DNA of 64,000 bases from Scytolyngbya sp. HA4215-MV1. Lineage in GTDB: Bacteria > Cyanobacteriota > Cyanobacteriia > Leptolyngbyales > Leptolyngbyaceae. How positions within the stretch are numbered: position 1 is the first letter of the stretch; each line of letters starts with the position of its first letter. This document shows positions 16,619 to 18,408 of the stretch, piece after piece. The notes under the pieces are model-generated. The model was not told the origin of the DNA and searched no databases. It saw nothing but the letters and a program-made list of their open reading frames with translations. Location: the NCBI GenBank assembly GCA_019359045.1, contig JAHHIA010000001.1:310001-374000 (forward strand). Reading direction: 5' to 3'. The position numbers were made by a program, and so were the translations under genes.

Positions 16619-16822
16619 TTATCCCTGAGCTAGCACCTCTCCTTGCGTCACGATCGCCTCGATATGAACGGTTTGGCGATCGACATCGACATCAGTCACA
16701 GCCCACCTTAGCGGCTCTCCCCACCTTTGCAACTCAGCTTCGATGAACTTTTGCATTTCTGCAGGGGAATTGTGCAGATCCAGGTCAGCTTCAATAAAGT
16801 GCATTCTCATGCGACACTTCAC
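16619..16822 (-). CDS. Small conserved cyanobacterial protein behind ferredoxin
   Basis: This 67-residue frame begins at a GTG that overlaps the ferredoxin stop by four bases (GTGA). Starts at ATG 16810 or 16804 are equally good. MRMHFIEADLDLHNSPAEMQKFIEAELQ, written here only by its opening MRMHFIEADL and HNSPAEMQKF, looks like a small alpha/beta protein. Translational coupling to the ferredoxin suggests a linked role. The function is unknown. Confidence 0.65.
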   Translation of the reverse strand: MKCRMRMHFIEADLDLHNSPAEMQKFIEAELQRWGEPLRWAVTDVDVDRQTVHIEAIVTQGEVLAQG

Positions 16823-17151
16823 TTTTGTTGTTGAAATTGTCCAAATTGGAGATGGTAAACAATATCTTCCTTTTCAGTTTCAATCTTCAAATTAGAACGT
16901 GGATACGCAACGCACAACAGCGCATATCCTTGTGCCTGCAATTCTGGGCTAATCCCCATGCCATCACTTTGATCAACCGTGCCTTCCAGCACTTGGGCAG
17001 CACAGGTAGTGCAAACACCAGCTGTACAAGAACTGGGCAAATCTAACCCGATTTCATTGACGGCAACCTCCAGAATGGTCTTATCTTCTGGCACTTCCAG
17101 GGTATGAGTTTCACCCTGGTGTTGAATTTTGACTGTATAAGTCTGGGACAT
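16819..17151 (-). CDS. Plant-type [2Fe-2S] ferredoxin
   Basis: The 110 residues have the cluster cysteines in the spacing C-x4-C-x2-C-x29-C (C42, C47, C50, C80), in SCTAGVCTTC and LLCVAY. The C-terminus is longer than in photosynthetic PetF (ending HLQFGQFQQQK) and the first strand differs, so this is one of the accessory ferredoxins rather than the main electron acceptor of photosystem I. It leads a unit with the small protein and DUF3326. Confidence 0.92.
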   Translation of the reverse strand: MSQTYTVKIQHQGETHTLEVPEDKTILEVAVNEIGLDLPSSCTAGVCTTCAAQVLEGTVDQSDGMGISPELQAQGYALLCVAYPRSNLKIETEKEDIVYHLQFGQFQQQK

Positions 17152-17358: not shown

Positions 17359-17518
17359 ACGCAAGATCCTGATTGACTGACAAATCTTTTTTGTAGGTTG
17401 GGTTGAACAACGTGAAACCCAACATCAACAGCGGTTGCGTTGGGTTACGCTCACGCTAACCCAACCTACGCAAGAATCAGGATTTGAGGAGTTTTGTCAG
17501 TCAATCAGACGCAAGATC
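17359..17518. mobile_element. 140-bp MITE with 16-bp terminal inverted repeats and 10-bp target duplication
   Basis: The element spans 17369-17508. It begins CTGATTGACTGACAAA and ends with the exact reverse complement. It is bracketed by the identical 10-mer ACGCAAGATC (17359-17368 and 17509-17518). Inside is a second inverted repeat: GTAGGTTGGGTT near 17393 and AACCCAACCTAC near 17457, the common cyanobacterial 'GTAGGTTGGGTT' palindrome. It has no coding capacity, so it would need a transposase in trans. Confidence 0.85.
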
Positions 17519-17554: not shown

Positions 17555-18408
17555 CTATTTCTTTTTTTTAAGGATTGAAATGATTTCATATCCACCCCTT
17601 GTAAACAACTCAACCTCAAAGTTCAGGTTCAGTAACGTCTTACACTCCAAAATGATTTCTATCATTTCCTTAGGAGTCCGAGCATGAAAGTGAATACTAT
17701 AATTAATTTCCATCCAAAACTGAGCCGCTTCCCTAATTTGCTACTCAGTTTTAGATTCGTCTAAGACATGAGTCCGTACATACCGTGCCCATTCATCGAA
17801 ATGCTGTTCTTTACTCCAAGTTCCGCCTTCTAGAAAATCTCTTTTAACATGTTCAATTGTAGAAATTGGACGATCTCAACATTAAACGTAAATCTTTTAT
17901 CTGAAATTGCTAGATAAAGGGTTCCTTCTGGCTTAAGTACCCGAAACATATTTTGAATTGCACCCAATGGGTTCTCGCAATGTTCCAAAAAATGATTGGC
18001 AATCACAAAATCCTGAGAATTATTTTTGATGGATGCTAGAGATTCACCATTGTCGATAATATCTAACTCGACCAAAAGGAGATCTTTTAATTCTGGATAA
18101 TGCTGTCGTAATTCTTCGTTACTAATGCGATCGACGTATTTAACTTTAGCTGTATTACTGATCTTCAAAAGGTTGTGTAAAGCCCCAATTTCGATGCCCG
18201 TACCAGAAATAAAAGCTCCTGCAATCTGTTCTCGGCTAACAAAAGCAGCCCGATCCAAAATGGGAGGAGAGGGGAGTGAAGCTTCTATTGAAGAGTCAGT
18301 ATCAGGTAAGACTGATTCTGCAGCAGCCACTTTCTATTCTGCAAACAGCTTTTTAACGACGCCATCTAGTTTTCTAGAAGCTCGATTCATGAGATCTAAA
18401 GCATTCAT
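17555..18408 (-). pseudogene. Class I SAM methyltransferase, decayed (two in-frame TAG, one frameshift)
   Basis: Read from ATG 18408, the frame starts MNALDLMNRASRKL and meets TAG at 18334-18336. It continues in frame (GTG 18330) through the methyltransferase motifs GIEIGALHNLL, VKYVDRIS, FVIANHFLEHCENP and FRVLKPEGTLYLAISDKRFTF. A one-base deletion near 17876 shifts the frame; the next frame restores DRPISTIEHVKRDFLEGGTW, then another TAG (near 17745) precedes QIREAAQFWMEINYSIHFHA, and the natural end is TAG at 17555. Methyltransferases of this kind act in glycan or polysaccharide synthesis. The surviving 166-codon piece (17830-18330) is very unlikely to be functional. Confidence 0.85.

Follow-up and report, generated by a model that had tools for sequence, protein, structure and literature searches.

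The 140-bp element in the stretch of Scytolyngbya sp. HA4215-MV1 DNA analyzed here (64,000 nucleotides, referred to as the window) is, judged from its sequence and that of its relatives, very probably a non-autonomous MITE that depends for its movement on the transposase of an insertion sequence (IS) of the IS4 family with the same ends. An earlier observation made from the DNA alone, of a MITE with terminal inverted repeats (TIRs) and a 10-bp target duplication, was confirmed. The element carries a pair of inverted hairpins as its core, it is present in five full copies in its own genome, and the IS with the same ends was found in relatives.

A MITE with intact ends and a perfect target duplication

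The features of the element are collected in Table 1. The left TIR (CTGATTGACTGACAAA, 17369-17384) pairs with the right TIR (TTTGTCAGTCAATCAG, 17493-17508) in all 16 positions. If the ends are taken as 19 bp (17369-17387 and 17490-17508), 18 of the 19 bp pair and there is one mismatch. The 10-mers flanking the element, ACGCAAGATC, are identical (17359-17368 and 17509-17518), and both this and the exactness of the 16-bp TIRs, as claimed in the sequence-only reading, were borne out by a direct check of the sequence. That reading also placed 140 bp without coding capacity between the TIRs. The lack of coding capacity was upheld, as the window sequence and its list of open reading frames (ORFs) gave no gene and no ORF of 50 or more amino acids within 17369-17508, but the length was not, since the 140 bp include the TIRs and the interior is 108 bp. 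GTAGGTTGGGTT (17393-17404) and AACCCAACCTAC (17458-17469) are both located inside the element.

An exact 16-bp TIR combined with an exact 10-bp duplication at a spacing of 80-400 bp occurred at a single place in the whole window, and at no place in 100 shuffles. A predicted gene on the minus strand at 16819-17151, by its sequence 2Fe-2S ferredoxin-like, has the MITE 217 bp upstream of it. Beside the MITE, at 17555-18330, ORFs on the minus strand resemble fragments of a broken methyltransferase gene.

Table 1. Features of the MITE in the window and related transposase remnants elsewhere in the genome.
Feature	Position	Strand	Remarks
Left target-site duplication ACGCAAGATC	17359..17368	.	Same letters as 17509-17518
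Complete MITE, 140 bp	17369..17508	+	Five genome copies; homologues in 60/144 relatives
Left TIR, 16 bp exact or 19 bp with one mismatch	17369..17387	+	IS4-family IS of relatives ends alike
First REP-like hairpin: GTAG foot, GTTGGGTT stem, 11-nt loop	17393..17423	+	Alignment and folding
Second REP-like hairpin, inverted: minus-strand GTAG foot, GTTGGGTTA stem, 9-nt loop	17439..17469	-	Alignment and folding
Right inner arm, hairpin pair to TIR	17470..17489	+	Alignable family-wide
Right TIR	17490..17508	-	Pairs with left TIR
Right target-site duplication ACGCAAGATC	17509..17518	.	Same letters as left one
Sister IS4-type transposase remnants	G000:C23:62739-63114, 521801-522104, 629679-630086		Loose-threshold search

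Copies in the Scytolyngbya genome

Across the whole genome (6.6 Mb in 33 contigs), five full copies of the MITE were identified, every one of them exactly 140 bp long. Four copies differ from each other by no more than two substitutions, and four of the five are flanked by perfect 10-bp duplications that are all different (ACGCAAGATC, CAGGCTGGCG, GTATCTAATG, and GAAGATGCAG). The target duplication was absent from one copy, at C23:471036. Altogether, these observations support the proposal that the MITE has intact ends and moved recently.

The copy on contig C15 (G000:C15:238952-239091; L014 201-340) was found to have a small internal inversion in addition to one or two substitutions. Its first hairpin is turned end for end, with the 11-nt loop inverted between the stem arms, and the equivalent change in the window would fall within 17397-17423. 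All five copies appear to be intergenic, and the frames that would span the empty site are only 73-75 codons long. No empty site was found, the flanks of the element not being shared by any of 144 relatives.

A further exact end at C13:157186 was solitary. It was considered as part of a partner IS and rejected, as a transposase ORF is lacking there and the end resembles a truncated copy.

The MITE family in relatives

The sequence-only reading had proposed searching the genome and its relatives for the ends and the full element; beyond the five full copies, this search gave matches to the MITE in 60 of the 144 relatives. Full-length homologues of approximately 130-143 bp were found in many families of the class, with 13-16 matching bases in the TIRs and often with perfect duplications of 9 or 10 bp. 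The mean column identity in an alignment of 21 copies was 82% over the whole length. The most similar MITEs were those of G003, where five of six copies were 92-95% identical. Since the homologues are diverse and found throughout the class while the local copies are near-identical, the family is old and widespread and the genome's own copies are recent. The term "young", as used in the sequence-only reading, therefore fits the copies in this genome but not the family.

Neither the MITE nor its ends had a useful match among plasmids, and a literature search with the motif strings returned no report that matched. One complete genome (G013) contained about 144 ends, many of them in near-identical 200-bp variants, which looks like a burst of copying of the MITE.

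An IS with the same ends in relatives

A search for the end pattern across the class led to genomes in which the same end was located at a contig break or lacked a mate at MITE distance. In relatives, the MITE ends CTGRTTGACTGACAAA were found to bound an IS of 1.29-1.33 kb with a single ORF of about 390-420 amino acids, and by its sequence this IS4-family element is likely the autonomous partner of the MITE. In the genomes to which the pattern search led, the partner IS was 1.32 kb long and flanked by 9-bp duplications (e.g., GTTTATGGC, CAGTAGGGT, and GCTTGATAC). The TIRs of the partner IS are identical to those of the MITE over 16 bp in Leptolyngbya, Nodosilinea, Pleurocapsa, Moorena, Oscillatoria, and others. 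Among named genomes, 72 partner-type loci were identified, including those of Leptolyngbya sp. Heron Island J and PCC 7375, Nodosilinea nodulosa PCC 7104, Pleurocapsa sp. CCALA 161, Moorena bouillonii, and Adonisia turfae. Most of the complete loci have CTGRTTGACTGACAAA ends and many have duplications of 9-10 bp. An IS with the same ends, which the sequence-only reading had suggested looking for, is thus present in many relatives.

MITE and IS are alike in their target sites. Among 54 non-redundant sites, duplications of 9 and 10 bp were found in a ratio of 19:13 for the MITE and 13:9 for the IS, with no duplication of 8 or 11 bp for either, and the outer base of the duplication was G or C in 88-94%. 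We propose that a DDE transposase would bind the 19-bp ends CTGRTTGACTGACAAA(A/T)(C/G)T, excise the element and insert it where the target is cut with a stagger of 9 or 10 bp, with a preference for G or C as the outer bases of the duplication. The inverted pair of GTAG-type REP hairpins would be cargo that spreads along with the MITE.

The partner transposase matched the IS4 model NF033591 with E-values from 1e-39 to 3e-32 and 112-136 bits, which is below the curated cut-off of 152, while PF01609 (Pfam DDE_Tnp_1) scored above its cut-off for two of three partner proteins. The catalytic spacing is D63D102-104E (D63D103-104E in most copies), within the D(60-110)D(100-150)E of IS4. All three DDE residues were present in 15 of 18 aligned partner copies and one was lost in the other three. 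The Y(2)R(3)E(6)K motif of the same 18 copies has K in seven, Q for K in ten and is broken in one; the complete YREK was found in the branch that holds the IS of G003, and Q for K in the Leptolyngbya/Nodosilinea branch. No solved structure matched the partner transposase by sequence.

G003, which has the closely similar MITEs, also carries an IS with the same TIR (L319). Past the 19-bp end, MITE and IS have no clear inner sequence in common, and the inner arms of the MITE match the inner ends of no IS seen. An origin of the MITE as an internally deleted copy of any of these IS is therefore unsupported.

One partner IS, at L221 117-1228 (1112 bp), has an internal deletion and could represent a step toward a MITE. 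Partner-type transposases were also encountered in Chloroflexi MAGs (L283, L270, and L290; Anaerolineae and Caldilineales), through either lateral transfer or binning error. The locus L109 193-1806 (G022), with 1.6 kb between the TIRs, was considered as an autonomous element and rejected, because its transposase is IS701-like and has inverted ends of its own, ACTTGGCAAGTTACC; a 1.4-kb IS701-like IS is nested inside a MITE end pair here. For PF01609 transposases of six genomes, no matching ends were found in the 30 loci examined.

Partner status in the Scytolyngbya genome

No intact partner IS was detected in the genome that carries the window, where a search at a strict threshold gave zero matches. 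At a loose threshold, C23 yielded three remnants of a sister element, all of them decayed (Table 1). They are short and contain stops and gaps, and their ends read TGTGTCAGGCAGTCAG or near it, which is the end of the sister element and not that of the MITE. With the partner no longer intact in this genome, the MITE copies are probably stranded at present. The partner IS may once have been present and then lost, or it may have acted from a plasmid.

The GTAG hairpin core and alternative explanations

The palindrome in the core of the element was found to consist of two inverted hairpins, 17393-17423 and 17439-17469, each with a GTAG foot. On sequence and predicted fold, the core is a GTAG-type REP pair and resembles a REPIN. 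The genome contains 22 exact GTAGGTTGGGTT sites, ten of which are in the five MITE copies, which supports the earlier claim that a transposable unit can carry the palindrome. Eight sites were counted for the reversed control pattern, and GTAGGTTGGGTT is therefore barely enriched outside the MITE in this genome. The same core was found within other palindromic shells in relatives (L064, L067, and L068). It is therefore best seen as a separate module carried by the MITE and by others, and the MITE would have captured the REP pair. A composite of two systems is conceivable, although we consider it rather unlikely: a DDE-type MITE would have taken in the REP hairpin pair, a target of HUH tyrosine transposases, as its conserved core, the combination would have spread throughout the class, and either transposase could move a part.

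It is very unlikely that the element was spread by a REP-associated tyrosine transposase (RAYT) acting on the inner GTAG hairpins, with the outer inverted repeats being merely a palindrome into which these were inserted. Such a history would fit the two inverted hairpins with their GTAG feet, the RAYT remnant in the genome and the GTAG-15 dimers described within long palindromes in Anabaena variabilis (PMC3733652). However, the boundaries of the copies coincide with the TIR and not with GTAG, the duplications of 9-10 bp are typical of DDE transposition, and the ends of the element match those of a DDE IS. Moreover, the sole RAYT gene found in the genome (46.7 bits vs. 80) is interrupted after about 100 amino acids; this RAYT-like gene, at G000:C17:122626 (L340 1468-1863), is cut by another palindromic repeat, of the CCCCCTAAATCCCCC type.

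The strong folding of the whole element (z = -7.9) and the intergenic position of its copies would also be expected of a functional RNA or terminator hairpin under selection, with the end repeats as part of the stem. We regard this as extremely improbable, since the copies are flanked by different target duplications, a transposase-coding IS is bounded by the same ends, and only three of 30 predicted pairs have a two-sided change, with an unfavorable covariation term.

A partner from the IS50 subgroup (Tn5-like) in place of the IS found in relatives is scarcely credible: the MITE TIR fits the end consensus of that subgroup, CW------Y---CA-A--W- (De Palmenaer 2008, PMC2266710), but cyanobacterial IS50-type elements have other ends (e.g., CTATCCATTACCCACATCT), at none of 30 loci did the IS50-type element itself end in the MITE ends, and at L177, the one locus where an exact MITE end is present, the IS50 remnant adjoins that end.

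Significance and comparison with known systems

The proposed transposition by the IS4-family partner connects a hairpin repeat that is common in cyanobacteria with a defined transposable unit and points to the transposase most likely to move it, and with this link the spread of the hairpin becomes testable. The presence in a MITE of a second known kind of repeated hairpin helps account for the way in which these hairpins spread. The genome also provides an example of near-identical MITE copies being kept without an intact partner. The ends, together with the target rule (9 or 10 bp, outer G or C), can be used to annotate many such cyanobacterial elements.

Nezha (Zhou 2008) is a cyanobacterial MITE that is reportedly active; the element described here is likewise a cyanobacterial MITE, the comparison being one of descriptions. 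A REPIN is said to consist of two inverted REP hairpins that form one unit. The MITE core also consists of two inverted REP hairpins but, unlike a REPIN, sits within a DDE-type MITE that has TIRs and is flanked by target duplications.

Relative to the IS4 family (De Palmenaer 2008, PMC2266710), the partner IS is alike in having one ORF in 1.29-1.33 kb, a DDE spacing of 63/103-104, target duplications close to 10 bp (each of 22 IS sites has 9 or 10 bp) and ends that start with CT, as in the subgroups IS10 and IS50. It differs in that YREK is complete in one branch only and that the NCBIfam IS4 match is below the cut-off.

The cyanobacterial GTAG-15 repeats have loops of 9-15 nt (PMC3733652), and the MITE core resembles their dimers in its GTAG foot, its loops of 11 and 9 nt and its location within a longer palindrome. 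However, the A. variabilis palindrome reads TATAGGAnTnnnATTTGATTnnTGAAA where the MITE reads CTGATTGACTGACAAA, and the parts of that paper that describe it do not link it to a duplication, an IS or a transposase (PMC3733652). A long palindrome with a GTAG dimer in it had thus been described before, in A. variabilis; the present analysis adds defined ends, a partner transposase and a spread throughout the class.
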